Shown here piece after piece: positions 1-41,376 of a stretch of 45,622 nt of DNA. The DNA lies in contig JADLEX010000075.1 of the NCBI GenBank assembly GCA_020845895.1, positions 1 through 45,622 of the forward strand, read 5' to 3'. Below the pieces are notes generated by a model. The model was not told where the DNA came from. It saw only the letters and a program-made list of their open reading frames with translations, and did not search any database. How positions within the stretch are numbered: the stretch's first letter is position 1; the number at the start of each line of letters is the position of its first letter. Both the position numbers and the translations under genes were made by a program. Source of the stretch: Deltaproteobacteria bacterium (GTDB lineage Bacteria > Lernaellota > Lernaellaia > JACKCT01).

Positions 1-2
1 AG

Positions 3-698
3 CGCGGTTTCGAGTCGTTTGTCGGGCTGTATCCCGTGCCGACGCGCCACGGCATGACCGCAGGCGAGATCGCGCGGCACGTGCGTCGCGCGCACGACAT
101 CGACGTAGATCTCGACGTCATCCCGATGGAAGGATGGACGCGCGCGATGTGGTGGGACGAGACCGATCTGCCGTGGATTCCGCCCTCCCCCAACATGCCG
201 ACGCTACAGACAGCCATCGTTTATCCGGGCGGATGTCTGATCGAAGCGACGTCCCTCTCCGAGGGGCGCGGCACGACGACGCCGTTCGAACTGGTCGGCG
301 CGCCGGGCATCGATGGCGCGGTCGTGGCAAACGACCTACGCGATCGGCATCTGCCGGGGTGCGTCCTTCGTCCTGTCACGTTCGAGCCGCGTTTTCAGAA
401 ACACGCGGGTGTCCCGTGCGGCGGCGTCTTCGTCCACGTGACCGATCGGGACGTGTTCGACGCGCTGCGCACCTACACTCACCTGATCGACGCGGTCCGA
501 CGGCGGTTTCCGGAGTCTTTCGCCTGGCGTGGCGAGGCGTATGAATTCGTTCGGGACGTTCCCGCGATCGATCTTCTTTCGGGATCGTCGCGTTTACGTC
601 ACGCCATCGAGTCGGGCGGCGATATCGACGACGCGCTTCGCGACGATTTCTCCCGCCGTTTCCTGGTCGAGCGCGAAGCGGATCTCATCTACCCTTGA
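3..698 (+). CDS. namZ: Exo-beta-N-acetylmuramidase NamZ / DUF1343 family, C-terminal part (5' end outside window)
   Basis: The reading frame is open to the left edge, so this is the C-terminal ~231 residues of a longer protein. A GTG at 36 could be taken as a start, but the codons before it still read as family sequence (GLYPVPTRHGMT), so the gene continues upstream. The motifs PTRHGMTAGEIA, WIPPSPNMPTLQTA, YPGGCLIEATSLSEGRGTT and FELVGAPGID are typical of DUF1343/NamZ proteins. NamZ enzymes remove terminal N-acetylmuramic acid from peptidoglycan fragments during wall recycling or turnover. The catalytic N-terminal region is not visible, so activity cannot be judged. The stop is TGA at 696-698, and about 390 bp without a gene follow. 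Confidence 0.88.
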   Translation, partial: RGFESFVGLYPVPTRHGMTAGEIARHVRRAHDIDVDLDVIPMEGWTRAMWWDETDLPWIPPSPNMPTLQTAIVYPGGCLIEATSLSEGRGTTTPFELVGAPGIDGAVVANDLRDRHLPGCVLRPVTFEPRFQKHAGVPCGGVFVHVTDRDVFDALRTYTHLIDAVRRRFPESFAWRGEAYEFVRDVPAIDLLSGSSRLRHAIESGGDIDDALRDDFSRRFLVEREADLIYP

Positions 699-1084
699 GT
701 CGGCGCGGCGGTGTCGTTTTTCGCCGATCACTCGACGGTTTTCGCTGCAAATTTCAACGATTTGGAGAGCCGTTTCGCGCTTGACAATGCGAGACCCGGT
801 ATGTTTAATACGCCGTCCGTAATCGGCCCTTCGAGGCGGGGGATTCACCGGTTTTTTCGACTGAAGGTCCGTTCAAAACGCTGAGCGCCGTTCTCGCGGC
901 GCACGCGGCGCGAGCGGCATCGGCACAAAGAAACCGGCGGCGGCGCGAAGAGCGGGAACGACGTGGAGAGACTCGATTTCGGCACGCGCGGCAACGCACC
1001 GGAAGTCCACGCGATTCCACGATTCGGACAAGCGGTCCAATGCGGAACCACACGCGTACGGCGTGAGCCTTTTTGCCGGGATGG
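699..1084. other. Intergenic region with promoter and long leader
   Basis: This 386-bp stretch separates the NamZ-family gene from the exported-protein operon. It holds a sigma-70-type promoter (781-809), which would give an untranslated leader of about 270 nt. I see no convincing riboswitch or small RNA in the leader, and no gene. Confidence 0.6.
781..809 (+). promoter_or_regulatory. Sigma-70-type promoter of the exported-protein operon
   Basis: A perfect -35 TTGACA (781-786) is followed by exactly 17 nt and a -10 TTTAAT (804-809, 5 of 6 consensus bases). Transcription would start near 816, pointing at the four exported-protein genes. In such GC-rich DNA this match is unlikely to be accidental, but it is a sequence match only. 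Confidence 0.6.
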
Positions 1085-2134
1085 ATGATGAACTATCGAC
1101 GACTCGCAGGGGTACTCATCGCGATGGGTCTGGTGCTGGCGGTGGCGGGAGCCGCGTCGGCCGAGGGACTTCTCGATAAGAATCTGCACTACTTCGCCCC
1201 GACGGTGGACGGCAGCGGCCTGATCGTCTCCTACGGGTCCGAGCCGCTCGGCATGTTCCGCATGGCGTACGGCGTGTATGCCGACGTCGCGATGGACGTT
1301 CTCGACTACGCGGCGCCGCCCGACGGCGACGAGGCGACCCTCATCTCCACGCAGGCGGCCGCCCAACTCGTCTACAGCATCGGGTTCTGGAAGTACGTCA
1401 ACGTCGGTTTCGGGCTGTCCTACATCCCCTACCGCCAGTTCGACGACGCATTCTTCGACGAAGAGTATCCGCACCCCGACGCCGATCTGAATCCGGACCT
1501 GCCCGGCACCAACCTCAGCGACGATGAGGGTCTCGGCGACCCCACCGAGGAAACCGGTCTCGAAGACGTCCGCCTCGACCTCAAGCTCATCGGCATCGAC
1601 CGACAGGAACGCTGCATCGGCGCGGCGCTCATCACGACGTTCGGTTACCCGCTCAGCTACAAGCCCAATCAGTTCCTCTCCGATGGCGGCGCGACGATCG
1701 CCCCGCGTCTGGTCGTCGACTTCGGTCGTACCTGGTACACGCTCGTCTTCAACGGCGGGTACAAGTACTACGCCGAAAAGTCGCGCGTGCGTCTGCCGGA
1801 TTACTCCGAGGAGATCGATTCTCCGACGAACGGCGACCTGGAAACCAACGACGAGATCATGCTCGGCGGCGGCGCGAAATTCCGTTTCGCCTACGGCTCC
1901 GAGATCATTCTCGATTCCCAGTTCCGCACGCAGGCCACCGACGCGTTCGGCGACGACCGCGTGGACTATGGAGAGGTGATGGCCGCGTACCGAAAGTATT
2001 TCCGGGGCCTCAACTACACCGCGCTGACCGTCGGCGGCGGCATCGGGGTGATGGACGGCATGGGAACGCCGCTGGGCCGATTCTTCATCGGCATCACGCG
2101 CGACGAAAAGAGACTCTACATCGCGGGCCGGTGA
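1085..2134 (+). CDS. Exported beta-barrel-like outer-membrane protein
   Basis: The predicted protein has about 349 residues, with a signal peptide (MNYRR, hydrophobic core, then AGAASAEG as cleavage region). The rest alternates short beta-strand-like segments with polar turns (FGLSYIPYRQF, WYTLVFNGGYKYYAE, FGRTWY, GLNYTALTVGGG). This resembles the N-terminal barrel of deltaproteobacterial OmpA-like proteins, but no OmpA peptidoglycan-binding domain follows. The acidic loop around residues 115-150 is unusual. A TTG at 1073 is in frame, but the paired ATGs at 1085/1088 behind GGGA are better starts. It is first in a unit with three more exported-protein genes, downstream of the 781-809 promoter. 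The barrel assignment is inferred from composition; the specific function is unknown. Confidence 0.7.
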   Translation: MMNYRRLAGVLIAMGLVLAVAGAASAEGLLDKNLHYFAPTVDGSGLIVSYGSEPLGMFRMAYGVYADVAMDVLDYAAPPDGDEATLISTQAAAQLVYSIGFWKYVNVGFGLSYIPYRQFDDAFFDEEYPHPDADLNPDLPGTNLSDDEGLGDPTEETGLEDVRLDLKLIGIDRQERCIGAALITTFGYPLSYKPNQFLSDGGATIAPRLVVDFGRTWYTLVFNGGYKYYAEKSRVRLPDYSEEIDSPTNGDLETNDEIMLGGGAKFRFAYGSEIILDSQFRTQATDAFGDDRVDYGEVMAAYRKYFRGLNYTALTVGGGIGVMDGMGTPLGRFFIGITRDEKRLYIAGR

Positions 2135-2219
2135 CCGGACGCCCGGCGGGAATCCGCCGACGCCCCGGCTCCGACAAATGGACGGCGCGACGACATCGAT
2201 TCGAGGGAAGGTGTTGAAC

Positions 2220-3086
2220 ATGGCAAGCACTCTGAAGATCCGGGTTTCGTTCCTCCTCGCGCTGGTCGCCGCGTTGACCGTTTTCGGTTGCGCCGCGAAT
2301 CAGGTGCAGTCGCCCGATTCCGAAATGCAGGGCCTGGGCAACCAGGACTCCCTGATGCGCGAGCCCCTGAACGACCCACCCAGCTACGCCCTGCTTCACA
2401 AGTCGCTCGAGTTCTACGAGCAGAAGCTCGGCGTGAAGTTCTTCAAGAACGAAAAAGACCGCTACATGCCCTACACGTCGTCCACGTGGCGCTCCTTCGC
2501 GATCGCCGATCACCTGAACGACTGCCTCTGGACGATGCAGATGAAGGGCCTGATCGGGTTCCGCTCCCTCGAGGGCAAGTACAGCTACATCATCGAGATG
2601 GACGCGGAACGCGGCGGTTGCGGAGTGGTCGGTGATGACGCCGACTCCCAGGCCAAGGACCTTGTTTCCATCATGGAAACCTCCGTCGTGACGCCGTCGA
2701 TCCGCGACCAGATCAACCGCGGCGTCAACTTCTGCTCCGGCGAGAAGTTCATCCAGGATGTCCTTCAGCTTCCGTACAAGATCCGCATTCGGGGCGAGAG
2801 CCTGGAGAACGCGGTTTCGCGGCATGCCGCCGAGGTCCGCAATCCCCTCGACATCGCTTATGGCGACCTCGTCTTCTTCACCGAGTACTACGGCGAGCGC
2901 AACATCGCCGTGTACGTCGGCAACGGCGTCATCGTTTACAACTCGTGCTTCCGCGCGGATCCGCACCGGCTGAACACGAACATTTCCTACCGCGTGTACC
3001 GCCTGTATTCGGGCTTCGGCGCGATCAACTACCGGATGAGCACCGACGTGTTCATGCGGGAGATCGTCGGCCGTCCCGACCTGTAA
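2220..3086 (+). CDS. NlpC/P60-like lipoprotein lacking the catalytic His
   Basis: This 288-residue protein starts at the ATG at 2220, seven bases or so after GAGGGAAGG; an in-frame start at 2178 has no such site. The signal peptide ends in the lipobox VFGC (Cys 24), so it should be lipid-anchored. The C-terminal half reads as an NlpC/P60 papain-like fold: FCSGEKFIQDVLQLPY (Cys 172 at the nucleophile position), then YGDLVFF (about 214-220), then NIAVYVGNGVIVYNS (from about 228). Family members normally have His where this protein has Asn 228 (HVGIYLG versus NIAVYVG). It may be an inactive binding protein or have altered chemistry. It lies 85 bp after the barrel gene. The family call rests on motif reading alone. 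Confidence 0.72.
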   Translation: MASTLKIRVSFLLALVAALTVFGCAANQVQSPDSEMQGLGNQDSLMREPLNDPPSYALLHKSLEFYEQKLGVKFFKNEKDRYMPYTSSTWRSFAIADHLNDCLWTMQMKGLIGFRSLEGKYSYIIEMDAERGGCGVVGDDADSQAKDLVSIMETSVVTPSIRDQINRGVNFCSGEKFIQDVLQLPYKIRIRGESLENAVSRHAAEVRNPLDIAYGDLVFFTEYYGERNIAVYVGNGVIVYNSCFRADPHRLNTNISYRVYRLYSGFGAINYRMSTDVFMREIVGRPDL

Positions 3087-3110
3087 GAGCGCGCGGAAAA
3101 CTCGCGGCGC

Positions 3111-3134
3111 GGCCCCGCCCGGTGCGGGGCCTTT
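3111..3134 (+). terminator. Hairpin with short T-run (partial terminator or attenuator)
   Basis: GGCCCCGC (3111-3118) pairs perfectly with GCGGGGCC (3124-3131) across a 5-nt loop, followed by only three T. It lies between the second and third genes of the exported-protein unit. It could reduce read-through rather than stop transcription fully. Confidence 0.45.
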
Positions 3135-3215
3135 GCCGATGGACGGCAACAAAGCCGTCGCCGACGCACGGGCCGACTGACCGCCCGGGCGCGACGACCG
3201 AGGAGAACGGAACCG

Positions 3216-5033
3216 ATGCAGCGACGTGGAATCAAGCGACAGGTTTTGGTGATGGCCGCGGTGATGGCGGCGTCTTTGGTGTCGGCGACGTACGCCCTTG
3301 CGCTCGACGCGGCCGAACTCCAGGCGTTTCTGGAAGTCGGCATGTACGAGGAAGTGCAGGCGATGTGCGCCGAAAATGCCGCGGAAGTCGCGGCGAACGG
3401 CCAGCTCGCGTCGCTGTGCGCGAAGGCCAAGGGCGGCGGCGTGTCCTCGGCCCCGGCCCCTTCGGCGCCGGCTCCGTCCGCTCCGTCGGCGCCCGCCCCG
3501 TCAGCGCCCTCCGCACCGTCGATGTCGTCCCCGTCTCCGTCCGCGCCGTCAGCGCCCGTGCCCGTTCCCACCGCGCCCGCGCCGACCTTCGTCCCGGATG
3601 CCGGTGGCGGACTCGACGCCGGAATGTTGGAAAACATGGTGCGCTCGGGTCAGCACGGTGCGGCCGCGACGATCTGCAACGACAACGAGGGCAAGATCAA
3701 CTCCCATCCCGACCGCGACCGCATCCGCAAGGCCTGCGGTCAGGCCAAGATGGCCATGTACAGCTCGAACAAGATGGACTCGACGTCCATCACCGGCGCG
3801 GTGGGCGATCTCGAGCAGTCGCTCAAGATGAGCTATGACGGCGTCGCGTCGTTCGATCTCGGCAAGAGCCGGATTCTGACGCTCGACACCGTTCCGACCG
3901 AGGCCGAGAAGTCGGAAAAAGAAAAGCAGGCCGTGCGCGAGATGTGGGACGCGATCGTCATGCGTCACGCCGAAGAGAATTTCAATCCGGCCGTGTCCGA
4001 CCAAATCATCGTCTGGACGATCGGAAACGGAGCGGATCAGGTGGGCTACGTCGATCTCGTGATCGACCGCGTTTTCAAAGACGAGGGCAACCGCGCCCGG
4101 CAGCGCTGGATGGCGTCGCGCCTGCGCATGCTCTCCGACCGGTTCACGAACATCGACCCGAACCAGGGTGAGAGCGAAACGCGTCGCGGCAACCTGGAGA
4201 CGCTCAAGTTCTGGATGACGGAGCTTTACGAGTACACCTACTTCGACAACGACATCGAGGTCGGCATGTACCGGTACAAAGGCAATCGGTACGCCGAGAA
4301 GTACGACCAAACCGAAGCGACCGAGGAGCAGTTCCAGAAGGCGCTGTTCTTCTACTCCGAAGCCCGCAATCGGGCGGACACGCAAAAAGCCAAGGCCGCG
4401 CTCGACCGCGACCTCGCATACCTGTGCAGCCGCTACCGCTCCGACGACCAGCAAAAACTCGTGAAGGTGTACCAGCAGGGCTTCCTGAAGGCGCTTCGCG
4501 GTATTCAGATCATGGATCTCGTCAACCGCGTGCAGCCGGAACAGGGCAAGTCGTTCTACCGGTACGAAGAGGCGAACGCCGAGCTGGCCTCTGAGCTTCA
4601 GAAATCTTACGGCCAGTGCCTGACCGGGTACATCTACTACCTCTACCTGACGAAGAATTACGTGGGCGTCGTGGCGCTCAAGAATCGCACGCTCGATGCC
4701 GGGTTCGACTGGGAAGGCAAGTCCGAGGTGCTGCTGATCTTCGCCGAGTCCGCCAAGGAACTCGCGGCGGCGAGCATGAACAACGAGACGCAGTACCGCA
4801 AATACAAGGAAATGTGCCTGGCCGGCGGATCGCGCGCCCTGAAATTCGCGCTGCGCAAATACGGCGGCAAAGCCCCGACGGGTTACGATGAAACGTTCTG
4901 CCGGACGTTCAACACGTACTGGAACTACCTGACCGGATTCGGCCAGAAGGTCGAGGCGAAGGCGCTCGAGAACCAGTTCGGCGCCATCTGTCCGGCCGAG
5001 GGCGGCACCGCCCCGGCCGCTCCGGCTCAATAA
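3216..5033 (+). CDS. Exported 605-aa repeat protein with duplicated Cys-pair module and Pro/Ala/Ser linker
   Basis: Start ATG 3216 follows GAGGAGAACGG at good spacing. A signal peptide ends near residue 29 (ATYALA). Two related modules follow: residues 30-72 (LDAAELQAFLEVG..., Cys 51 and 68) and 133-178 (LDAGMLENMVRSG..., Cys 154 and 174). They are separated by a low-complexity APS-rich linker at 76-128. The remaining ~420 residues look helical, with repeated Tyr/Ala/Leu patterns suggesting TPR-like or solenoid helices (EEQFQKALFFYSEARNRA; NYVGVVALKNRTLDAG). I do not recognise a family. The linker and paired cysteines suggest two disulfide-stabilised domains tethered in the periplasm or cell envelope. 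It lies between a lipoprotein gene and another exported protein. Confidence 0.75.
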   Translation: MQRRGIKRQVLVMAAVMAASLVSATYALALDAAELQAFLEVGMYEEVQAMCAENAAEVAANGQLASLCAKAKGGGVSSAPAPSAPAPSAPSAPAPSAPSAPSMSSPSPSAPSAPVPVPTAPAPTFVPDAGGGLDAGMLENMVRSGQHGAAATICNDNEGKINSHPDRDRIRKACGQAKMAMYSSNKMDSTSITGAVGDLEQSLKMSYDGVASFDLGKSRILTLDTVPTEAEKSEKEKQAVREMWDAIVMRHAEENFNPAVSDQIIVWTIGNGADQVGYVDLVIDRVFKDEGNRARQRWMASRLRMLSDRFTNIDPNQGESETRRGNLETLKFWMTELYEYTYFDNDIEVGMYRYKGNRYAEKYDQTEATEEQFQKALFFYSEARNRADTQKAKAALDRDLAYLCSRYRSDDQQKLVKVYQQGFLKALRGIQIMDLVNRVQPEQGKSFYRYEEANAELASELQKSYGQCLTGYIYYLYLTKNYVGVVALKNRTLDAGFDWEGKSEVLLIFAESAKELAAASMNNETQYRKYKEMCLAGGSRALKFALRKYGGKAPTGYDETFCRTFNTYWNYLTGFGQKVEAKALENQFGAICPAEGGTAPAAPAQ

Positions 5034-5080
5034 CGCGTTAACGATCACACGACACCGAACCGGAAAGGGACGTCGTCATC

Positions 5081-6103
5081 ATGTCGAAACGAACCGTGTG
5101 GACCATGGGTGTGGCGCTGGCGCTGGCCGCGGTCATGACCGCGATGGCTTTCGCCCAGGGCGAGGCCCCCAAGGGCGATCCGATCAAGATCGCGTATATG
5201 CGCTGGCTCCAGAACGACATCATCCGAAACGTCGAGGAGATTCGCAGCGCCAAGGACCCGTGGGAGCGCCGCGACCTCGTCGAGGATATCGAAGAGATCA
5301 TCTGGGAACGCATCGAGTTCCCGATGTCGTACCAGCAGGCGGAACTGACGGACATGATGGACCTCGGCCGCATCGGCGTGACGTCGAATGTCGGCGAAGC
5401 GCGCGAGGCCGTGCCGGAGGCACCGTCGATCGCGGTTTCCTATGCCCTGCTCGGCATCGCCAAGGGCTATGAGGGCTTCGGCAACGCGGCCACCGACTAC
5501 TTCCAGAAGGCCAAGGAGATCTACCCCAACGTCATGGGCGCGGCGGTCAGCCTGGACCACTCCAAGGACAATCGCCCCCTGAACGAATGGATCAACGTCA
5601 GCCGCGCGTACTGGAGCACCTCGGCCACGACGCGCGTGACTTTTTACGGCAAGAACGTCGATCAGGACGTGGTTGACGCGCTCAACAACGACGAGGTCGC
5701 GATCCTCCCGGGCGAGCCCAAGGCGTCCAAGTACACCGTGTTCGTCGCCCGTCGGGATTTCGTCCGGGGGATGAAGCGATACATCCTGACCAGCGACACG
5801 CTCAAGGAACGCCGCGAAAACAAGTTCTCGATCTACCTCGAACCCGGCGATTACACGCTGAAGACCTCGATCACGAGCACGCTGCCGATCTCGTTTCGTG
5901 TATCGCGCAACTTCAACGAGAACAACTTCGTCATCGAGACGATGGCGCAGGGCGGCCTGACGATCTACCCGATCCCCGACATCCGCGTCTTCGAGGCCGA
6001 GATGAAGAAGGCCATGGCCTCCGCCCGCGAGCGTCAGGAATCGCAGGACGCGGCCACCGACCTGATGGCGCCCGAGGGCACCGAGGAACTCCCGATCCCC
6101 TGA
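5081..6103 (+). CDS. Exported 340-aa protein of unknown function
   Basis: Start ATG 5081 is preceded by GGAAAGGGA at slightly long spacing. There is a clear signal peptide (MSKRTVWTMGVALALAAVM..., cleavage near AMAFAQG). Residues 25-160 look helical and contain a TPR-like stretch (YALLGIAKGYEGFGNAATDY). Residues 170-300 are rich in beta-strand patterns (TRVTFYGKNV, KFSIYLEPGDYTLKTS, FVIETMAQGGLTIY), as in a beta-sandwich. The C-terminus is acidic and disordered-looking. I recognise no family. It is the last gene of the exported unit, 47 bp after the 605-aa protein and just before a strong terminator. Confidence 0.75.
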   Translation: MSKRTVWTMGVALALAAVMTAMAFAQGEAPKGDPIKIAYMRWLQNDIIRNVEEIRSAKDPWERRDLVEDIEEIIWERIEFPMSYQQAELTDMMDLGRIGVTSNVGEAREAVPEAPSIAVSYALLGIAKGYEGFGNAATDYFQKAKEIYPNVMGAAVSLDHSKDNRPLNEWINVSRAYWSTSATTRVTFYGKNVDQDVVDALNNDEVAILPGEPKASKYTVFVARRDFVRGMKRYILTSDTLKERRENKFSIYLEPGDYTLKTSITSTLPISFRVSRNFNENNFVIETMAQGGLTIYPIPDIRVFEAEMKKAMASARERQESQDAATDLMAPEGTEELPIP

Positions 6104-6123
6104 CGCCAGGGGTTCTCAGCGCA

Positions 6124-6157
6124 AAAACGCCCGGCCGCACTCGCGGTCGGGCGTTTT
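6124..6157. terminator. Bidirectional intrinsic terminator between convergent units
   Basis: A 15-bp stem, AAAACGCCCGGCCGC against GCGGTCGGGCGTTTT with one G-U wobble, closes a 4-nt loop (6139-6142). The T-run on one strand is matched by an A-run on the other, so it can serve both the exported-protein operon (+) and the end of the flagellar cluster at fliW (-). Confidence 0.9.
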
Positions 6158-6183
6158 GATTTCGGGCGTGGAGCCCGGCCCGG

Positions 6184-6696
6184 CTACTCGGCGGGCTCGG
6201 CGATCGGTTCGTCGAATTCGGGAAACAGGGGGTGGCGGGTCTGGTAACCCGAATCCTTGAGCACGAACTGCCGGCCCACGCGGGTTTTCGAGTTGAGCAG
6301 AATCGGTCCCTGAAGATTCGCGGTCATCGATTCGATACTGCCCCGGAGGGAGAGGATGACCAGCACGTCCAGATCCTCCCGGTCGACGATGCCCCGCGCC
6401 TCGAGTTCCTCCGCGCGTGCATCGACCTGGTACTCGGGGAAGAACGTCATCGGATCGGTCACCACGAACGCGAGGTCACCCTCGTCCAGCGACTGGAGCC
6501 ACCAGAACGGTGAATCCTGATCGGGTTCCAGCAACGCGTAGCGTGCGGAATCGGGAAAGCCGAGCAACCCACCGGGGATCTTGATGGCGCGACCGATCTC
6601 GACGTCGATGTCGCCGAATCGCGACGTGTGAAAGCGGACTCGCGGAGCGGGAGGAGCGGGCGTCGGGTCGGGAGCGTTGTTGTGAAGTTCACTCAT
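6184..6696 (-). CDS. fliW: Flagellar assembly factor FliW
   Basis: This 170-residue protein has the FliW pattern: [56 protein letters not shown], and [20 protein letters not shown] near the end. FliW binds flagellin and, when free, binds CsrA and relieves translational repression of flagellin. Its start overlaps the end of csrA by 8 bp, with AAGGAG as ribosome binding site, so the two partners are translationally coupled. The Pro-rich N-terminal extension (about residues 9-18) is unusual. It is the last gene of the flagellar cluster. Confidence 0.95.
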
Positions 6697-6943
6697 GGCT
6701 AGCTCCTTCGACCTTGCGCGTCTTGAAACGCGCCAGCGCGGCGCTCACCATGTCGGGAGTCACCGCCGCCGCCTGTTTGTTTTCTTCCTGAATGCGCAGA
6801 TAGATCTCCTCGCGATGCACCGCGACGCTCGCGGGCGCGCGAATGCCGATCTTGACCTGATTTCCGCGGACTTCCTGGATGTGGATGCGGATGTTGTCGC
6901 CGATCGTGATCGATTCGCCGACCTTGCGCGTGAGAACCAGCAT
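6689..6943 (-). CDS. csrA: Carbon storage regulator CsrA, RNA-binding translational repressor
   Basis: The 84-residue sequence begins [18 protein letters not shown] and contains [17 protein letters not shown], including the RNA-contacting VHREEIY region. The C-terminal tail (residues 60-84) is longer than in the ~61-residue E. coli protein; extended C-termini are common in bacteria that pair CsrA with FliW. It lies between flgL and fliW, the usual place for the CsrA-FliW-flagellin switch. A GGAGGG sequence precedes the ATG and could also be a CsrA contact site, but this is only a possibility. Confidence 0.97.
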
Positions 6944-6987
6944 GACGGGACGCCCTCCAATGGCGAACGCAAATTATAGGTCCGGGA

Positions 6988-7863
6988 TCAGAAGTAGTCC
7001 AGCAGGTTCTGTTGAACAACGCGGTTCGAGACGAGCAGCGTGGCCTGATAGACTTGCTCCATCAGGGCGAAGTCGGCAGTCGCCTTGGCGATGTCCACGT
7101 CCTCGGCGTCCGACAGGATCTTGTTCATCAGCTCGTTCATCTCCGAGTTCGCGTTCTCGGCCCGGTCGATGGCACTCGTGACCGCGCCGATCGCCGATCT
7201 GGCGCCGACCACCTGCTCGATGGCGTCTTCGACCTGCGGAATGAGCGCCGAGATCTGCGTCTGATCGCCCGCCGCGATGGCGGCTTCCAGATCGGTGAGC
7301 ACCTGAAAGACGTCGATCGGTCCCTTGAAGACCTCGTCGCCGCCCCGGTTGATCGTCACGAAGTTGGCTGACGTCACCTCGATGTCGATGCTCTGGCCCG
7401 TGCCGCCCGAGTATGCGCCGACGCCGTCGAAGGGCGGCGTGAGGGTCTCGTATCCGGCGAAGATGTAGCGCCGGTCGTCCCGCGCGTTGGCGCTCTTGAG
7501 CACGCTCTGGAAAATCCCCGCGATCTCCGCGGCGGCGGCCTGAAAGTCGGTCGTCGCGGCCGTTCCGCCGTTGATGTCCGTCGCCAGTTCGCGCGCGCGG
7601 GTCAGGTCGTCCGCCACCGACGAGAGGGCGCTTTCCATCAGCGTCGCAAAGTTGCGCGCATAGCCGACGTTGCGCTGGAACTGCTCGAAGCGTCCGATCT
7701 GGTTGCGCGTCCCGGTGATCCGCGCCGCGCCGACGGGATCGTCGGACGGGCGATTCACCTTCTTGTTCGTGATCAACGCCTCCTGCGCGTTCATGTAGCG
7801 CTCGCGGTTCTGATTCACGTTGATCGAGGCGTTGGCGAAAAGTTGGGCGGTGGTGACGCGCAT
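6988..7863 (-). CDS. flgL: Flagellar hook-filament junction protein FlgL (HAP3)
   Basis: The 291-residue protein begins MRVTTAQLFANASINVNQNRERYMNAQEAL and carries NRPSDDPVGAARI, the flagellin/FlgL N-terminal signature. The C-terminal coiled segment (ATADFALMEQVYQATLLVSNRVVQQNLLDYF) closes the D0/D1 helical bundle. FlgL joins FlgK to the flagellin filament and is exported by the flagellar type III apparatus. The start is an ATG behind GGGAG, 12 bp after flgK. The 44 bp to csrA hold no obvious terminator. Confidence 0.95.
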   Translation of the reverse strand: MRVTTAQLFANASINVNQNRERYMNAQEALITNKKVNRPSDDPVGAARITGTRNQIGRFEQFQRNVGYARNFATLMESALSSVADDLTRARELATDINGGTAATTDFQAAAAEIAGIFQSVLKSANARDDRRYIFAGYETLTPPFDGVGAYSGGTGQSIDIEVTSANFVTINRGGDEVFKGPIDVFQVLTDLEAAIAAGDQTQISALIPQVEDAIEQVVGARSAIGAVTSAIDRAENANSEMNELMNKILSDAEDVDIAKATADFALMEQVYQATLLVSNRVVQQNLLDYF

Positions 7864-30188: not shown

Positions 30189-31208
30189 TCAGACCGTATC
30201 GTCGTCGGTGGTGTCGTCGTCCGTCGTGTCATCGTCCGTTGTATCGTCGTCCGCATCATCGTCCGTATCGTCGTCGGTGTCGTCGTCGGTGTCGTCGTCG
30301 CCGCCCGCGTCGATCACCGTATAGGCGTCGTCGAGCGTGTCGCTCGTGTCGTCGGGGTTCACGAGCGTGATGGAATACAGGCCCGGGGTCGTGCCCGCCG
30401 GAACCGTGACCACCACACGCGTCGTGGACTGGAAGACCGGCTCGGGCTCGGTGAGCGCCGTCCCGCCCAAGTACACGGTGACGGGGTTCGTGAAGTTCGC
30501 GCCGATGATCGTCACCAGCACGTCCTCGTCGTTCTCTCCCGACGTCGGCTCCACCGAGTCGATGCGCACCGCGTCCGCGGAAATCACTTCGAAGGCGTCG
30601 AGCAGCGTGGCCGTCGAGCCGTCCGAGTTCGACACGCTCACGTCGTAGGTATCCGGTGTCAGGCCGGCCGGAACCACTGCGGTAATCGTACTCGCGTCCA
30701 CCAATTCGATCTGCGACAGCGTGGTGTCGCCAATCAACGCGGTCGCCCCCGCCAGAAAGCTCGCGCCGATCAGCGTCACGGCGGTTTCCTCGCTGTCGAG
30801 CCCTTCGCTCGGCGTGATCGACGTGAGCTGGATTTCGCCCGGGTCGACGACCGTGAATGCATCCGCGCGCACGCCGCTCGCGCCGGTCGAGGACACCGCC
30901 GTCACGTCGTACACGCCCGCCGTCATGCCGGAGGGCACCAACGCGGTCAGCACCGTCGCCGAGACCTGCGTGACGGCCGTGCACAGCGTCGCGCCGACGT
31001 AGATCTCCATCGTGCCGCCGAAACCCGTGCCGCGCACCGTGATCGCCGTCTCGGCGGTGTTCGCGCCCTCCGCCGGCTCCACCGAGTCCACCGTCAGCCC
31101 GCCAGAACTCTTCGATGCGATCCGCCCGAAATCCCGCGAGCACGTCGCGAAGACCGCGACAGCGGCCAGCGCCGTGATCCACACGAACGGGGAATGTCGT
31201 TTCTTCAT
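30189..31208 (-). CDS. IPT/TIG-domain lipoprotein with Asp-rich C-terminal tail
   Basis: From the ATG at 31208 the protein has 339 residues. The signal peptide ends VFATC (Cys 23), a plausible though imperfect lipobox. Three IPT/TIG repeats follow, each opening with a similar line: VDSVEPAEGANTAETAITV, LTSITPSEGLDSEETAVTL and IDSVEPTSGENDEDVLVTI, and each containing G-A/T-x-F and VVVxVPAG-like strands. The last ~37 residues are nearly pure DDDT repeats. IPT domains are Ig-like surface modules. The gene starts 23 bp after the CsgG-like lipoprotein stop. A start 27 bp upstream that overlaps that stop is possible. Confidence 0.82.
   Translation of the reverse strand: MKKRHSPFVWITALAAVAVFATCSRDFGRIASKSSGGLTVDSVEPAEGANTAETAITVRGTGFGGTMEIYVGATLCTAVTQVSATVLTALVPSGMTAGVYDVTAVSSTGASGVRADAFTVVDPGEIQLTSITPSEGLDSEETAVTLIGASFLAGATALIGDTTLSQIELVDASTITAVVPAGLTPDTYDVSVSNSDGSTATLLDAFEVISADAVRIDSVEPTSGENDEDVLVTIIGANFTNPVTVYLGGTALTEPEPVFQSTTRVVVTVPAGTTPGLYSITLVNPDDTSDTLDDAYTVIDAGGDDDTDDDTDDDTDDDADDDTTDDDTTDDDTTDDDTV
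30192..30302 (-). repeat. Asp-rich (DDDT)n coding repeat, C-terminal tail
   Basis: An imperfect 12-15 bp repeat of GAC/GAT codons with ACG/ACA/GCG spacers encodes DDDT, DDDA and DDDTT units at the extreme C-terminus of the IPT lipoprotein. Confidence 0.9.
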
Positions 31209-33550: not shown

Positions 33551-35821
33551 ATGGAGTCGATGTTCAGCGTTGCTCGAAATGTCGTGCGCCTGTGCGCGAC
33601 GATTCTGTTTGTCGTCTTCGCGGCGGCGATGGCGATACCCGCCCACGCGGCGCAGGATGCCTTGGGACCCGGCGGCGCTCCGATCGGCGGGTCCGGCGGA
33701 TTTTCCGGCGAGCCGAGTTTCGAGGCCGCCCTCGCCGACTATCACGCCAAACGCTACGCCACGGCGATTTTACAGCTCTTCGCCTATGTGGAGAAAACCC
33801 CGCCGCCCGCGGATCTGGGCGAGGCGGAGTTCCTGCTCGGTCTCGCGCTCATGGACAGCGGCGGAGCGAAGGACGCGTCGTTTTTCTTCGCCGAGGCCGA
33901 GAAGCATTTTTCGGGGTTCGAGGACGTCGCCGCGCTGTATCTGGTGAAGAGTCTGGAGCGCGCGGGCGACCACGGCGCGGCCGGCGCGGCGCTCGATGCG
34001 GCGCTCGGGCGGCATGCGTCGTCGCCGATGTTTTCGGACGCGCCCGAGTGGCGCGCGCGGCTGCAGGCGGCGAGCCGCGATCACGCGCGCGCGGCGAAGA
34101 CCTACGAGGCGCTGGCGGGCGGCTCGTCCGGCACGGCCGAGTTCAACGAGAACATGTATCTGGCAGGCGAGCAATGGGCACTCGCGGGTCGCTACGCGGC
34201 GTCGGCCGCTGCGTTTCGGCGCGTGCTCGATTCGGAGCGCATCGACCGCTTTTCGACGCGGGCGATCGGCGGCTGGGAAAACGCCCTTCGCGCGATGAGC
34301 GACGGCCGGGTGACGGACGAATTCCGCGCATACATGGAGACGTGGGCCGACGCGCGCATCAAGGCGTCTCACCACCGGCAGGCGCAGCCCGCGCTCGAGG
34401 CAGTTCGTCGGGCGTCGGGCGGCGTGCTCGATGCTCCGCGACAGTTCCAACTCGGCCTCGCGGCGTTTCACAATCACGACAACGACGCGGCCATCCGCGA
34501 GTTCACGGCGTTGGCCGAATCGGCCACGGAGTACGCCGACGACGCGCGCTATCGCCTCGGCAAGGTCCGCACGCGCCAGGGCGACAACGAGGGCAGCCGC
34601 GCCGAGTTTCAGACGCTGCTGCGCGCGCATCCCGGCAGCGGCCTGCGCGGCGCGGCGCACTACCAGCTCGCGCTGATCGACATGGAGGACAACCGCTACG
34701 AGAGCGCATGGCGCTATTTCGACCAACGCCTCGCCAAACCCGCCGGCGGTCAGGAAGAGTATTTGACGTGGCTCAAGGCGTGGACGGCGTATCGTGCGGG
34801 CAAGCTCGACGCGGCAGAGACGACCATCGACGGCCTGCTCAAGAAATTCGCCAAGTCGCAAAACGGCGACCGCTACCGCTACTGGCGCGCGGCGATCCGC
34901 CAGGCGCGCGGCGAGACCGAACCGGCGGCGGCGGACTGGACCGAGATCAACGGCGACCCGCGCAGCTACTACGGCATGCGCGCGGGCGAGCGGCTCGCGT
35001 CGATGCGTCGGACGCATCGGAATCCGGCGGGCGATTTTCGCGCGCGGGGGGTTGGATCGTCGCCGGTGCCTTCACCGAAGCCCGAGGATTTTCCGGAGGC
35101 GGTACGTTCGCTGGTGCAAAAGACGATCAAGCTGGAGCGGCTGGACTGCCGCGCCGAGGCGTCGGTGCTGTCGAAGAGGATCCTCGAAATTCTCGACAAG
35201 CCCGACGTCGAGCGCTCGCGACGCTGGGCGGCGGCCGAGCTCTTGCGTATGACCGGCCACTACGCGATCGCGAAGAAGCTGGCGATCGACGGCGGGCTCT
35301 ACGGCCACCTGCGCGCCTATTCGAATCCGCTGTCGGAGAGTTACTGGCCGCTCATCTATCCGCGCGCGTACGACTGGGCGGTGAGCGACTACGCCGGGCA
35401 GCGCGGAGTGCGTCAGGAGTTGGTGTGGGCGATCATGTACAATGAGAGCAGGTTCCAGCCGCACGTGGTGTCGCCGGCGAACGCCATCGGGCTGATGCAG
35501 ATCGTGCCGCGCACGGGGTTCGAGATCGCGCAGGCGCTGGGCGAGACGGGCTTCGCGCCGGACGACCTCTACGACCCGGTCACGAATATCCGCTACGGCA
35601 CGTGGTATCTGCGCAGCATGCTCGACCGCTTCGAGGGCAACGAAATCTGCGCGATGGCGAGCTACAACGCGGGGCCGGACGTGGTCTCGAAGTGGTGGCG
35701 CAACAAGGGCGCGTTTTCGGAGGAGATCTTCATCGAGGAGATTCCCTACAAGGAAACGAACAACTACGTGAAGCAGGTGCTGCTGACGTACCGGATCTAC
35801 CGGGACCTGTACGGGGGTTGA
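33551..35821 (+). CDS. Soluble lytic murein transglycosylase, Slt family
   Basis: The protein has about 756 residues. After a signal peptide (ARNVVRLCATILFVVFAAAMAIPAHA) a long superhelical region with many Ala-rich and TPR-like helices spans about 40-560 (for example DDARYRLGKVRTRQGDNEGS), as the doughnut domain of Slt70. The C-terminal catalytic domain is complete: ELVWAIMYNESRFQPHVVSPANAIGLMQI, with the catalytic Glu near residue 632, then YDPVTNIRYGTWYLRSML and MASYNAGP. It cleaves peptidoglycan glycan strands to 1,6-anhydro products. I chose ATG 33551 over the in-frame GTG at 33542. It may supply the wall-opening activity missing from FlgJ, though nothing here proves that. Confidence 0.92.
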   Translation: MESMFSVARNVVRLCATILFVVFAAAMAIPAHAAQDALGPGGAPIGGSGGFSGEPSFEAALADYHAKRYATAILQLFAYVEKTPPPADLGEAEFLLGLALMDSGGAKDASFFFAEAEKHFSGFEDVAALYLVKSLERAGDHGAAGAALDAALGRHASSPMFSDAPEWRARLQAASRDHARAAKTYEALAGGSSGTAEFNENMYLAGEQWALAGRYAASAAAFRRVLDSERIDRFSTRAIGGWENALRAMSDGRVTDEFRAYMETWADARIKASHHRQAQPALEAVRRASGGVLDAPRQFQLGLAAFHNHDNDAAIREFTALAESATEYADDARYRLGKVRTRQGDNEGSRAEFQTLLRAHPGSGLRGAAHYQLALIDMEDNRYESAWRYFDQRLAKPAGGQEEYLTWLKAWTAYRAGKLDAAETTIDGLLKKFAKSQNGDRYRYWRAAIRQARGETEPAAADWTEINGDPRSYYGMRAGERLASMRRTHRNPAGDFRARGVGSSPVPSPKPEDFPEAVRSLVQKTIKLERLDCRAEASVLSKRILEILDKPDVERSRRWAAAELLRMTGHYAIAKKLAIDGGLYGHLRAYSNPLSESYWPLIYPRAYDWAVSDYAGQRGVRQELVWAIMYNESRFQPHVVSPANAIGLMQIVPRTGFEIAQALGETGFAPDDLYDPVTNIRYGTWYLRSMLDRFEGNEICAMASYNAGPDVVSKWWRNKGAFSEEIFIEEIPYKETNNYVKQVLLTYRIYRDLYGG

Positions 35822-35934: not shown

Positions 35935-36945
35935 ATGTTGACGATGCGGTATGGAATTCATCGGAGTGGTGTGGCGGTCTTGGCTCTGTGGCTCGCGCTG
36001 CTGGTCTTTACGGCCGGCTGCGGCGGCGGGGACGACGAGAACTCGCGAGGCGGAACCGTGGACGGCGACGATGACGCCGCTGACGACGACGATTACACGC
36101 CCGGGGACGACGACGGCACGGACGACGATTCGGACGATGACACGGATGACGATTCCGACGACGACACGGGCGATGACGACGCGGGCGATGACGACACGGC
36201 GGACGACGATACCGGCGACGACGATACCGGCGACGACGATACCGGCGACGACGATACCGGCGACGACGATACCGGCGACGACGACACGGAGGACGCGACC
36301 GTCACTCTGCATGTGACGGACGGCGAAACGCAGGACGACATCGAGGGTGCGACCTGTACGCTGATTGATTCTGAGAGCGGACAGCCGGTCGCCCCGGAGA
36401 ACTCCGACGAGTCGGACGCGGATGGCATTTGCACGCTGACGCTCGCGGCCGGCGGAGGCGTGGAGGCGATACGCATCACGGCGACGGACTATGTCACCGC
36501 GTACAACTTCGAAGTGGCCACGAACGCGACGGTCGAGCAGATACTCGTCAAGGAAGCCAGCCGGAATGCGCTCGCGGCCTTGCTGAGCGTCACCATCGAT
36601 CCGGCGGACGGACTCGTCATCGGCGTGGTGCTTTGGTCGAGCGAATCCGGCGTCGATTTCGTCGGGTGCACGGAGATCGCAAACGATTCCGGGCAAAACG
36701 ACGTTTTTTACTCCGACGATTCGGGCGCACCCGGCGACAGCCGCACAAGTACAAATCCGGTTAACTCGTCGTACCTGCTCTTCAACGTGCCGGCCGGCGG
36801 TCCTTACACGTTTACCGGCGACACCGCCGGCGATATCGTCGAGAACGTTGCGCCGAAGGTGTTCGCCGAGGCCATGACGTTTGTTTATCTGATCTACGAC
36901 GCGGCGACGTGGCCAACCAACCCAACGCCCGGCGGGTGCAGCTGA
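35935..36945 (+). CDS. Lipoprotein with Asp-rich linker and carboxypeptidase-regulatory-like domain
   Basis: The start at 35935 (or in-frame ATG 35944) follows GAGGTGGAG. The signal peptide ends VFTAGC (Cys 29). Residues ~30-120 are an Asp-rich stretch of DDDT, DDDS and GDDDT units. The rest begins VTLHVTDGETQDDIEGATCTLID and continues with TLAAGGGVEAIRITATDYVTAYNFEV, a pattern of carboxypeptidase-regulatory-like or Ig-like beta domains. The C-terminal ~140 residues (FVGCTEIANDSGQNDVFYSD...; AATWPTNPTPGGCS) have no family I know. It likely sits on the cell surface or in the periplasm, held away from the lipid anchor by the acidic spacer. Confidence 0.82.
   Translation: MLTMRYGIHRSGVAVLALWLALLVFTAGCGGGDDENSRGGTVDGDDDAADDDDYTPGDDDGTDDDSDDDTDDDSDDDTGDDDAGDDDTADDDTGDDDTGDDDTGDDDTGDDDTGDDDTEDATVTLHVTDGETQDDIEGATCTLIDSESGQPVAPENSDESDADGICTLTLAAGGGVEAIRITATDYVTAYNFEVATNATVEQILVKEASRNALAALLSVTIDPADGLVIGVVLWSSESGVDFVGCTEIANDSGQNDVFYSDDSGAPGDSRTSTNPVNSSYLLFNVPAGGPYTFTGDTAGDIVENVAPKVFAEAMTFVYLIYDAATWPTNPTPGGCS
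36061..36294 (+). repeat. Asp-rich (DDDT)n coding repeat with five exact 15-bp copies
   Basis: The tract encodes the acidic linker of the 35935-36945 lipoprotein. Within it, the 15-mer GACGACGATACCGGC occurs five times in exact tandem at 36202-36276, encoding DDDTG repeats. The flanking parts are less regular. Identical copies suggest recent slippage or expansion. Confidence 0.92.
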
Positions 36946-38760: not shown

Positions 38761-41376
38761 TCACCACTGCGACGGATCGAGAAGCACGTCGCAGTCAATG
38801 AAGTCGGCGCCGGCATCGTTTCGGAACGGCGACTGGCAATACTCGAACAGATACAGAAACTCCTCGTGCGGCGGCACGAGTCCGTCGGGTCCGTTGCGCG
38901 ACGGCTCGTAGGGGAACGGTCCGTCGGCAACGGAGCCGTCCCACGGATCCCAGTAATCCCAGTCTTCATACAGATCGACGGCCTTCGTGTAAAAGTCGAC
39001 GACCTGCTGTGCTTCCGCCGACGTGAGCGGCAGACCGTAGGACGCCGCCGCCACGCAGTACGAAGCGGTGTCCACATCCCAGGCCGGGTCGTCGGACTGG
39101 CTGCCCTGATGGTTCATCATGCGGTCCACACGATACGCCATGCCGTCCATCAATTCTTCCGCCGCGTCGTCCTCGCCCGCAACGAGCGCAAGGCCGAGCG
39201 CCGAAAGATGGAAGTAACGGATGATCGCGTAGTTGTAGTAATGCTGGAGCGTGGCGACCGTTTCGTAGATCAATTCCGCGCCGTCGTTGCAGTCGTTGCC
39301 CATCGGATCGTCATAGCCGATCAGCGCCGCGGAGAGCTTCGCGTCGCACTCGCCATTGGGCGCGAGGGGATCGAACAGCACGAACGACGCGAGGTCGGCG
39401 ACGAGCCCGTTGTCGGGATTGATCGGCACCTCGGCGTTGCCCCATTCGTCCTTCGTGCGAATGTGATAACCGGAGTCGGTGATGTCCTTGGCGAAGCCGC
39501 GCAGCGCCGCCAGCGCATCCTCGGCCGCGTCGCGCACATCCGTGTCCTCGCCGTCCTGCGCCACGTACGACAGCATCGGCACGGTGCGGAAAATGTGCGG
39601 CACGTCGTCCTTGCTGCGCCAGTTGCGCACCCAAATCGGGCCGTAATACGGATTGGTCGCGTTCGGCACCGTGTGCGCATTCCAGTCGTAGGAGTAGTGC
39701 TTCGCGCCGTCGTAGTTCACGGTGATGTCGCGCCCGTCCACCTCGTAGCTGTGATTGAAGGGGAAGAGCGTGCGGACCATGATGGTCGTCTCGGGATCTT
39801 CCTCGTCGTGCGCCATGCCCCAGAACAGCGCCTGCACGCCCTTGCACAGGTCGATCAGCAGTTCGCCGATCTCGTCATCGCCCGTCGCCAGATAGAGCGC
39901 CGACACGTTGTTGATGATCTTGCCGGTCTGGATCATCAGGTTGTCCGACGCGCCGGTGTGCGCGTACGTGACCACGCCGCCGCTCTTCGACGCGCCGAAA
40001 TCCTGAAGGTGCAGCTTGTAGTCCGGCGAATCCATCACGTTGTCCGCCGCCATGCCATGGGCGAGCCGGCGCATCCAGTCGAAGTAATCGACATCGGCGA
40101 GGAAGCCCGTCACCGCCGCCGTGAAGTCGTCGATCTCCTGCTCGGTCAGCGGCGTGCCGACGTCGGGCCGCGTGTACGCGAACGGAAGCGTCGTCGGCAG
40201 CGCGCGCGGCGGCGCGGGAATCGGCGCGACGTCATTCGCTCGGGGCGCGGCGAAGAACTTCGCCGACTTGTCGGGGGGCAGCGTGCGGACGAGGCGGAAT
40301 CCCACGAACCGATCGCGCCGGTCGGGCGTGTGCACCTGTCGATGCGCCGCGCGCAGACGCAGCGCGCCGTCCCAGCGGGCCGATCCGCCGCGCACCGAGC
40401 GGAAGTGATCTTCGATCGACTCCGCCGGATCGTCGCCGTCCGCGGGATCGGTCGAGTAGCCGTCCCACGTCCACTCTTTCACGTTGCCGAGCATGTCGAA
40501 CAAATCCCAGTCGTTGGGCAGCTTTCCTCCAACCGGGTGCGTGTAGTTGTTGGAATTCGCGCAGTACCATGCAATGGCTTCAAGGTTCGGATCGAGCGGC
40601 AAGCAGGCCGTGTGCGTGATGTCGCCGTTGTAAAACGCGGTCGTCGATCCCGCCCGCGCGGCGTACTCCCACTCCGCTTCCGTGGGAAGCCGGAACCCCT
40701 CGCACTCGTAGATCGTCGCCGCATCGAGGGAAACGTCCGCCGCCGCGACGCCGCCATGCCCGGCGCAATCCGTCGGATCGGTCACCGGAGTGTCATCCTC
40801 GCAAACGACGTTTGCGAAGACGAAACACGGATCAAAGTCGTGCGCGATCGACATGGCGTTTGCGAACAGCAGGGCGTCGAACCACGTGACCCCGTCCACC
40901 GGGCGGTCGGGGCTGTCGCCGACGAGTGGAAAATGGCTGGGGTTGAAGCCGAGCAGGGTGTCGAACAGTTCCTGCCGGACTTCGGTCGCCATCATCTCGA
41001 AGTGGCGCGTGATCGTTACGTCATGCAGCATTTCATTGGCGTTGCGCCCCGACTCGTTCGACGGGCTGCCCATTGAGAACGATCCGGCGGGGATGTACTC
41101 GAATCCTTCCGTCGTCGGGTACGTATCGTCGTCGTCCGCATCGTCGTCGGCGTCGTCGTCGGCGTCGTCGTCGGGCAGGGGCGGCCACGTGTCATCATCG
41201 CCCGTGTCGTCGTCGGAGTCGTCATCCGTATCGTCATCGATGGTGTCGTCGTCCGCCGCGTCGTCGTCGGGCGCGGCGGCATCGTCATCGTCGTCGTCGC
41301 CGCAACCGCACCCGATTGCGAGGACCGCGGCGAAAAGGGCGAGGATCAGCCGAAAATCCAAGCGAAATTTGCCCAT
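38761..41376 (-). CDS. Large lipoprotein: Asp-rich linker, SUMF1/FGE-like domain, unknown C-terminal half
   Basis: From the ATG at 41376 (GGGGGAGAACG upstream) the protein has 871 residues. The lipobox is LAIGC (Cys 23), followed by an Asp-rich linker at 27-85. Residues ~90-330 are a formylglycine-generating-enzyme-like domain: FEYIPAGSFSMGSPSNE, ATEVRQELFDTLLGFNPSHFP, PVDGVTWFDALLFANAMS, FRLPTEAEWEYAARAG, LGNVKEWTWDGY, RSVRGGSARWDGALRLRAAHR, VGFRLVR. The paired active-site cysteines of true FGE, expected after the RGGS motif, are absent, so it is probably a binding or other SUMF-family module. The last ~500 residues are unrecognised, with helical, Trp/Tyr/Asp-rich repeats suggesting an alpha/alpha barrel of carbohydrate-active type; that is a guess. 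Confidence 0.82.
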   Translation of the reverse strand: MGKFRLDFRLILALFAAVLAIGCGCGDDDDDDAAAPDDDAADDDTIDDDTDDDSDDDTGDDDTWPPLPDDDADDDADDDADDDDTYPTTEGFEYIPAGSFSMGSPSNESGRNANEMLHDVTITRHFEMMATEVRQELFDTLLGFNPSHFPLVGDSPDRPVDGVTWFDALLFANAMSIAHDFDPCFVFANVVCEDDTPVTDPTDCAGHGGVAAADVSLDAATIYECEGFRLPTEAEWEYAARAGSTTAFYNGDITHTACLPLDPNLEAIAWYCANSNNYTHPVGGKLPNDWDLFDMLGNVKEWTWDGYSTDPADGDDPAESIEDHFRSVRGGSARWDGALRLRAAHRQVHTPDRRDRFVGFRLVRTLPPDKSAKFFAAPRANDVAPIPAPPRALPTTLPFAYTRPDVGTPLTEQEIDDFTAAVTGFLADVDYFDWMRRLAHGMAADNVMDSPDYKLHLQDFGASKSGGVVTYAHTGASDNLMIQTGKIINNVSALYLATGDDEIGELLIDLCKGVQALFWGMAHDEEDPETTIMVRTLFPFNHSYEVDGRDITVNYDGAKHYSYDWNAHTVPNATNPYYGPIWVRNWRSKDDVPHIFRTVPMLSYVAQDGEDTDVRDAAEDALAALRGFAKDITDSGYHIRTKDEWGNAEVPINPDNGLVADLASFVLFDPLAPNGECDAKLSAALIGYDDPMGNDCNDGAELIYETVATLQHYYNYAIIRYFHLSALGLALVAGEDDAAEELMDGMAYRVDRMMNHQGSQSDDPAWDVDTASYCVAAASYGLPLTSAEAQQVVDFYTKAVDLYEDWDYWDPWDGSVADGPFPYEPSRNGPDGLVPPHEEFLYLFEYCQSPFRNDAGADFIDCDVLLDPSQW
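41124..41310 (-). repeat. Asp-rich coding repeat of the SUMF1-like lipoprotein
   Basis: Imperfect GAC/GAT-rich repeats encode DDDDDD, DDDT, DDDS and DDDA units between the lipobox and the SUMF1-like domain. A short WPPLP break divides the tract in two. Confidence 0.9.

Follow-up and report, generated by a model that had tools for sequence, protein, structure and literature searches.

A four-gene envelope cluster of Candidatus Lernaellota as the probable output module of an ion-motive-force-driven machine

What do four consecutive genes for exported proteins, which the initial annotation had proposed as one undescribed envelope complex, do in a bacterium of the poorly studied Candidatus Lernaellota? 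The genes lie near the start of contig JADLEX010000075.1 of the reference genome (G000), and the 45,622-nucleotide stretch analysed is called the window here. The comparison covered seven genomes of the class (G000 to G006), which is placed in phylum FEN-1099/Ca. Lernaellota, and the co-occurrence and synteny claims are based on these seven. The features of the locus are as follows.

54 to 698, plus strand: 3' part of a NamZ-type exo-beta-N-acetylmuramidase gene, cut at the contig edge (context only)
781 to 809, plus strand: sigma-70-type promoter, TTGACA-17 nt-TTTAAT
1085 to 2134, plus strand: barrel gene (alternative start TTG at 1073)
2220 to 3086, plus strand: lipoprotein gene
about 3103 to 3141, plus strand: GC-rich hairpin, possible weak terminator (-26.6 kcal/mol, z -2.1)
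3216 to 5033, plus strand: gene of the 605-aa protein
5081 to 6103, plus strand: gene of the 340-aa protein
6122 to 6157, plus strand: strong terminator hairpin (-29.3 kcal/mol, z -6.1)

All four genes are intact, and each product has a single hydrophobic N-terminal segment that fits a signal sequence, in agreement with the proposal of four exported proteins in a row. The promoter named in the initial annotation was recovered with 11 of 12 consensus positions, a site with two mismatches or fewer being expected 0.24 times by chance across the whole window. In G001 and G002, identical hexamers at the same 17-nt spacing lie upstream of the barrel gene, within DNA that otherwise aligns poorly, and this strong promoter is kept in three genera. 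The strong terminator was equally recovered, and its position also suits the convergent fliW. A single transcript for all four genes is uncertain because of the internal hairpin, which sits in the 129-nt gap between the lipoprotein and 605-aa genes, where relatives have a transducer gene. An Rfam search of window positions 1-7100 gave no match. The truncated product of the first gene matched PF20732 (E 3.7e-42) and PF07075 (E 1.6e-16).

Rather than being scattered, which would have spoken against the initial annotation, the four genes were found together and in the same order in six of the seven genomes, spanning three families; G006 is the one genome that lacks them. Four of these six clusters include, in addition, a TonB-like transducer and divergent MotA/ExbB-type and ExbD proteins. 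The full arrangement in G003 and G004 is a seven-gene run of barrel, lipoprotein, transducer, 605-aa-type, 340-aa-type, MotA/ExbB-like and ExbD-like genes, spaced by -4 to 71 nt. G001, where the cluster is spread over two contigs, and G002, where it is frameshifted and has ExbD-like genes in tandem, agree with this order. The cluster motor proteins matched PF01618 (E 1.5e-11) and, above the cut-off in G003, PF02472 (E 1.3e-6); the MotA-like protein has a conserved Thr in its membrane helices, and the ExbD-like protein an invariant Asp14 where its membrane helix starts. The motor of the relatives, and that found on contig C136 of G000 (below), is assigned by sequence to the Mot/Tol/Exb superfamily, with a PF01618 subunit and a PF02472 subunit bearing the membrane aspartate. 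The idea of one conserved envelope unit for which no described counterpart was found therefore stood, but the unit as first drawn was incomplete: it appears to be the outer half only, to which relatives add motor and transducer.

The barrel protein, with orthologues in six genomes, is by prediction an outer-membrane beta-barrel of the TraB/OmpA type without the OmpA domain. It had no Pfam match and no features of a TonB-dependent receptor were found. The window protein matched the TraB model at E 7.2e-05 and its G003 orthologue at E 1.9e-17 over model positions 2-292 of 522; the match stops there, and the OmpA C-terminal half of TraB was not found. The protein, a predicted barrel as had been suggested, is no orphan: the N-terminal half of TraB is its relative. 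The likeness to TraB-type outer-membrane exchange is confined to the similar sequence of the barrel half, and none of the cluster genes seen is TraA.

The second protein looks like an outer-membrane lipoprotein with a degenerate NlpC/P60 domain, a putative pseudoenzyme. It has a lipobox-like ...FGC, with the Cys there or at most one residue away in all aligned orthologues. Its own match to PF00877 (E 0.0017) was below the cut-off, three of five orthologues matched NlpC/P60, and solved structures gave a weak NlpC match, with CwlO at E 0.035; an AlphaFold (AF2) model from a thin alignment reached pLDDT 38. The earlier description as a pseudo-hydrolase could be sharpened, as all five aligned lipoproteins have Asn or Thr in the position of the catalytic His and those of G004 and G005 have also lost the catalytic Cys. 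The lipoprotein may bind peptidoglycan, and the system as a whole may act in outer-membrane and peptidoglycan mechanics.

The exported 605-aa protein is probably helical. Its N-terminal module of about 45 aa is duplicated, as the initial annotation had noted, with a Pro/Ala/Ser linker between the copies (residues 29-75 against 129-182; 0 of 1000 shuffles were equally good), and the window protein had no Pfam match. The 340-aa protein appears to be helical in its N-terminal half and beta-rich in its C-terminal half according to a low-confidence AF2 model (pLDDT 40.6); this model, from a thin alignment, is the sole basis for the suggested beta-sandwich. Both proteins have orthologues in six genomes and no convincing relative in about 380 genomes outside the class, the search with the 605-aa protein covering 386 genomes. 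The few weak outside matches were short, with E values of 2.5e-4 or worse, and the neighborhood of one of them, in G261, held nothing similar (only one gene was called there, by a program whose training set was GC-rich DNA). Solved structures gave no match for the barrel, the 605-aa and 340-aa proteins or the terminal domain of the transducer, and the one named relative found in a scan of public genomes was G002.

The transducer would link the cluster to a motor. Its C-terminal domain, about 50 residues with two conserved cysteines, was found only in class genomes that have the cluster: in five of the six, with one copy each and two in G002, the transducer gene of the sixth, G001, being cut by the contig end. 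The domain is absent from G006 and had no convincing match in about 380 other genomes. Neither the domain nor the whole transducers matched a vWA domain, and the transducers had no FHA match. The anchor and motor differ between genomes. The divergent pair is present in G001, G003 and G004. In G000 and its distant relative G005 only, the terminal domain stands on a Ton-type transducer (membrane helix GSVVLH) beside Ton-type ExbB and ExbD. This set is 63 nt from the cluster in G005, and in G000 it is on another contig, C136, with no motor or transducer adjoining the four genes. The C136 transducer and that of C100 in G005 had no match to PF03544 (TonB_C), in whose place the new domain stands; the ordinary Ton loci of G002, G003 and G005 do end in PF03544. 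In our tree, the G000 and G005 ExbBs fell within the Ton clade, well separated from that of the divergent MotA proteins, and were not each other's sisters; the cluster MotA-like protein formed a clade of its own, and neither type grouped with TolQ.

Motor and anchor thus vary while the terminal domain and the four-gene module are constant, which led us to conclude that the four genes probably encode an output module, periplasmic and outer-membrane, for an envelope machine that belongs to the Mot/Tol/Exb superfamily and is driven by ion-motive force. The same outer half joined to two different motors looks like a natural engine swap. Activity of Escherichia coli TolA/TonB chimaeras goes with the C-terminal domain, according to work cited in PMC12204202, and on that account a terminal domain that stays the same suggests that the target does too.

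The model builds on what the genomes compared show: which genes are present and in what order, which domains they encode, the exclusive co-occurrence of terminal domain and cluster, and the exchange of motors. An inner-membrane motor of MotA/TolQ/ExbB-type and ExbD-type subunits would move a TonB-like transducer made of a membrane helix, a proline- or glycine-rich linker and the new C-terminal domain. This domain would make contact with the two periplasmic proteins, of 605 and 340 aa, through which force could pass to the pseudoenzyme lipoprotein and the barrel, and so to the outer membrane. In the window organism, motor and transducer would be the ExbB-ExbD-TonB-type set of C136 with the TonB C-terminal domain swapped out, a link suggested by the shared terminal domain and by the relatives, the window itself having no motor gene.

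We give somewhat less than even weight to a Tol-Pal-like role. The machine would then tie the outer membrane to peptidoglycan and help the membrane keep up with the wall as the cell grows or divides, and the pseudo-NlpC lipoprotein would stand in for Pal as the part that binds the wall. The motor would correspond to TolQR, the transducer to TolA, the periplasmic proteins to TolB/CpoB and the lipoprotein to Pal, which likewise share an operon in TolQRA-TolB-CpoB-Pal. NamZ opens the window, and genes for an M23 (EnvC-like) protein, a CtpA-like protease, a YibQ-type deacetylase and NamZ lie upstream of the G002 cluster, but the other two families showed no such neighborhood of peptidoglycan genes. 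The cluster, however, has neither a TolB propeller nor a Pal/OmpA domain, and its terminal domain is unrelated. The Tol-Pal role is also not vacant, because complete Tol-Pal operons coexist in G000, G001, G003, G004 and G005; with these five read and TolB present in all seven genomes, replacement of Tol-Pal was rejected. A Tol-Pal-like role would be a functional refinement of the output-module explanation and no alternative to it.

That the four proteins form a self-contained, static complex, beside which motor genes lie by chance in some relatives, would suit the lack of an adjacent motor gene in G000. We consider this unlikely, since in the genomes compared the terminal domain and the cluster co-occur exclusively, and two lineages have the domain attached to a second type of motor. 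Energised, Ton-like transport by way of the barrel is slightly more doubtful still. The Ton-type motor and transducer anchor of G000 and G005 do resemble ExbB-ExbD-TonB, but the barrel is of the TraB/OmpA kind, the cluster has no TonB-dependent receptor and four dedicated envelope proteins instead, and the TonB C-terminal domain is replaced while ordinary TonB is retained in G002, G003 and G005.

A machine for gliding or other surface motility, on the pattern of Myxococcus Agl-Glt, is improbable too. The Glt machinery combines a TolQR-like motor, a TonB-like transducer, periplasmic proteins and an outer-membrane barrel (PMC3169522), a make-up that the cluster shares, and the tandem ExbD-like genes of G002 would fit. 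However, the four window proteins matched no Glt NCBIfam model at E up to 5, the transducer lacks FHA, and the separate MotA clade speaks against this reading. Relatives G003, G004 and G005 moreover have a separate Agl-like set, in which a MotA and a pair of ExbD proteins accompany one that is GltG-like (in G004 recognized by sequence) and which in G003 and G004 includes TPR proteins matching GltE among other TPR families. A flagellar accessory structure, considered because fliW, csrA, flgL, flgK and more flagellar genes directly follow from 6184 on the opposite strand, is very improbable and was rejected, as this linkage exists in the window genome only, the cluster lacks flanking flagellar genes in G001-G005, and it is transcribed toward them with a terminator between.

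The proposed output module would belong to a machine separate from Tol-Pal, ordinary Ton and the Agl/Glt-like set of the relatives. A parallel to its transducer is offered by the vWA-type force transducers (PMC12204202), in which a TonB-like anchor, encoded next to TolQR-like genes, likewise bears a terminal domain other than that of TolA or TonB; here no vWA was found, the domain is of about 50 residues with two cysteines, and the partners are others.

Few ion-driven envelope machines are known: Tol-Pal, Ton, Agl-Glt, Gld, flagellar stators and Zorya. To these a poorly studied phylum would add both an outer-membrane module and a domain of the transducer for which no relative was found. The chances seem to us evenly balanced that the ion-driven force-transduction machine of Ca. 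Lernaellota forms a class of its own, with its own transducer terminal domain and outer-membrane module, and that its motor was replaced at least twice with the output module unchanged. If so, motor exchange under a constant output would be direct evolutionary evidence for interchangeable motors, and the terminal domain of the transducer would set the target, in line with the engineered TolA/TonB chimaeras.

The four genes that the initial annotation read as a cell-envelope operon are intact in the window, at the place given for them:

1085-2134, + strand, barrel gene (gene 1)
2220-3086, + strand, lipoprotein gene (gene 2)
3216-5033, + strand, gene for the 605-aa protein (gene 3)
5081-6103, + strand, gene for the 340-aa protein (gene 4)

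Each product begins with a single hydrophobic segment, in keeping with the signal peptides claimed for all four. The proposed sigma-70-type promoter (TTGACA-17-TTTAAT, 781-809) matches 11 of 12 consensus bases, and two further genera show its hexamers and spacer length 5' of their barrel gene; the strong terminator (6122-6157, folding energy -29.3 kcal/mol, z -6.1) also stands. Less sure is the claim of one promoter-to-terminator unit: because of a hairpin between genes 2 and 3, weaker than the terminator (z -2.1), a single transcript for all four genes may not hold.

All four genes, with order kept, were found in 6 of the 7 genomes examined from the class; the seventh (84% complete) has none of them. 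They are split over two contigs in G001 and frameshifted in G002 (record JAOSJX010000001.1, same family as the window's genome, G000), possibly through sequencing errors. This record carries the label FEN-1099, a phylum equivalent to Ca. Lernaellota (PMC13248872). For the 605-aa and 340-aa proteins, profile searches of 386 genomes gave no convincing match outside the class.

The cluster is thus conserved, as expected of one envelope unit, but the set of four was incomplete: in four relatives (G001-G004) it extends further. A gene between genes 2 and 3 encodes a transducer with a cytoplasmic part, a single membrane helix, a Pro-rich linker and a conserved end (in G001 it extends past the contig end). 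Genes 3' of gene 4 encode a divergent MotA/ExbB-like protein (PF01618, E 1.5e-11) and a divergent ExbD-like protein (PF02472, E 1.3e-6 in G003), the latter with an invariant Asp where its membrane helix begins. The seven-gene run is complete in G003 and G004, with intergenic gaps of -4 to 71 nt. The ExbD-like and transducer genes are both in tandem copies in G002 (L038 6116-7306 and G002:C1:393047-394862).

The divergent ExbD was not found in G000 or G005, and the best matches to the divergent MotA there were weak. The ~50-residue terminal domain of the transducer was located on C136 of G000, a contig other than the window's, and on C100 of G005, in the latter 63 nt from the four-gene cluster. 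At both loci it caps a transducer whose membrane helix (GSVVLH) is of TonB type, and ExbB and ExbD lie alongside. PF03544, which closes the ordinary Ton loci of G002, G003 and G005, was not found on these two transducers. The G000 ExbB is 77% identical to the ordinary ExbB of G002 versus 24% to the divergent MotA, and in the ExbB tree the proteins of both loci fall inside the Ton clade but are not sisters. Judged by sequence, both are of Ton type. The motor was likely exchanged twice, independently, a count unproven since several tree branches are weakly supported. Among the 386 genomes, the terminal domain was convincing only in cluster-bearing ones. In TolA/TonB chimaeras, according to work cited in PMC12204202, the terminal domain determines what the transducer acts on; this result, together with the same terminal domain and four-gene set under two motors, is the main argument for joint working.

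As for the four proteins, the G003 barrel orthologue matched the TraB model over positions 2-292 of 522 (E 1.9e-17), so that the barrel half is present without the OmpA half. The NlpC/P60-like assignment fell below the cut-off for the window lipoprotein (E 0.0017); since two genomes have lost the Cys and all of them the His, it is probably a pseudoenzyme, which perhaps binds the wall. The duplicated module with a Pro/Ala/Ser linker was borne out: the N-terminal module of the 605-aa protein is doubled in the window and G002, and single, with no linker, in the G003-G005 orthologues. On the helical plus beta-sandwich claim for the 340-aa protein, a model of low confidence showed helices followed by strands. 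No family was assigned to either protein.

An Agl-Glt-like identity is unlikely: G003, G004 and G005 have distinct sets in which a MotA-type protein stands with two ExbD proteins and one that is GltG-like (L116 1479-4500, L114 1-2766, L118 1852-4501); these sets resemble the Agl-Glt core. By phylogeny, the divergent MotA forms a clade separate from TolQ, Ton ExbB and AglR-like proteins. Nor is the cluster Tol-Pal, separate operons for which, identified by gene order and sequence with a TolB search as anchor, occur in all five genomes read (TolB in 7/7 genomes of the class). A flagellar association was dismissed, flagellar genes lying beside the cluster in the window only. No described system with this set came to light: the cluster is real and conserved, and a full-text literature search for the combination found no description. 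Excerpts of the literature on such motors and transducers do not mention such a terminal domain.

In a genome of 5 Mb, the window is contig C75. The four genes and a large flagellar gene cluster (6184-29212, - strand) are convergent. The genes at 30189-31208, 35971-36945 and 38761-41376 encode exported proteins that carry long runs rich in Asp and Thr (DDDTDDD), frequent in relatives too, and 33551-35821 encodes tetratricopeptide repeats followed by a transglycosylase SLT domain in one protein. Barrel-gene paralogues (G000:C11:46863-47669, or L042 6699-7706; L036 4199-5131; G002:C1:387195-388008) lie near the cluster in G001 and G002, and in G000 on a different contig, close to a fliD-like gene. 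M23 (EnvC-like), CtpA-like, YibQ-type deacetylase and NamZ genes lie 5' of the cluster in G002 (L072 2-4939).

The best-supported mechanism is one where ion flow would drive motor movement, the transducer would span the periplasm from the motor, and its terminal domain would engage the 605-aa and 340-aa proteins, with force passed on to the lipoprotein and the outer-membrane barrel. Given the murein-related genes that precede the cluster both in G002 and in the window, its purpose would most likely be outer-membrane/peptidoglycan mechanics.
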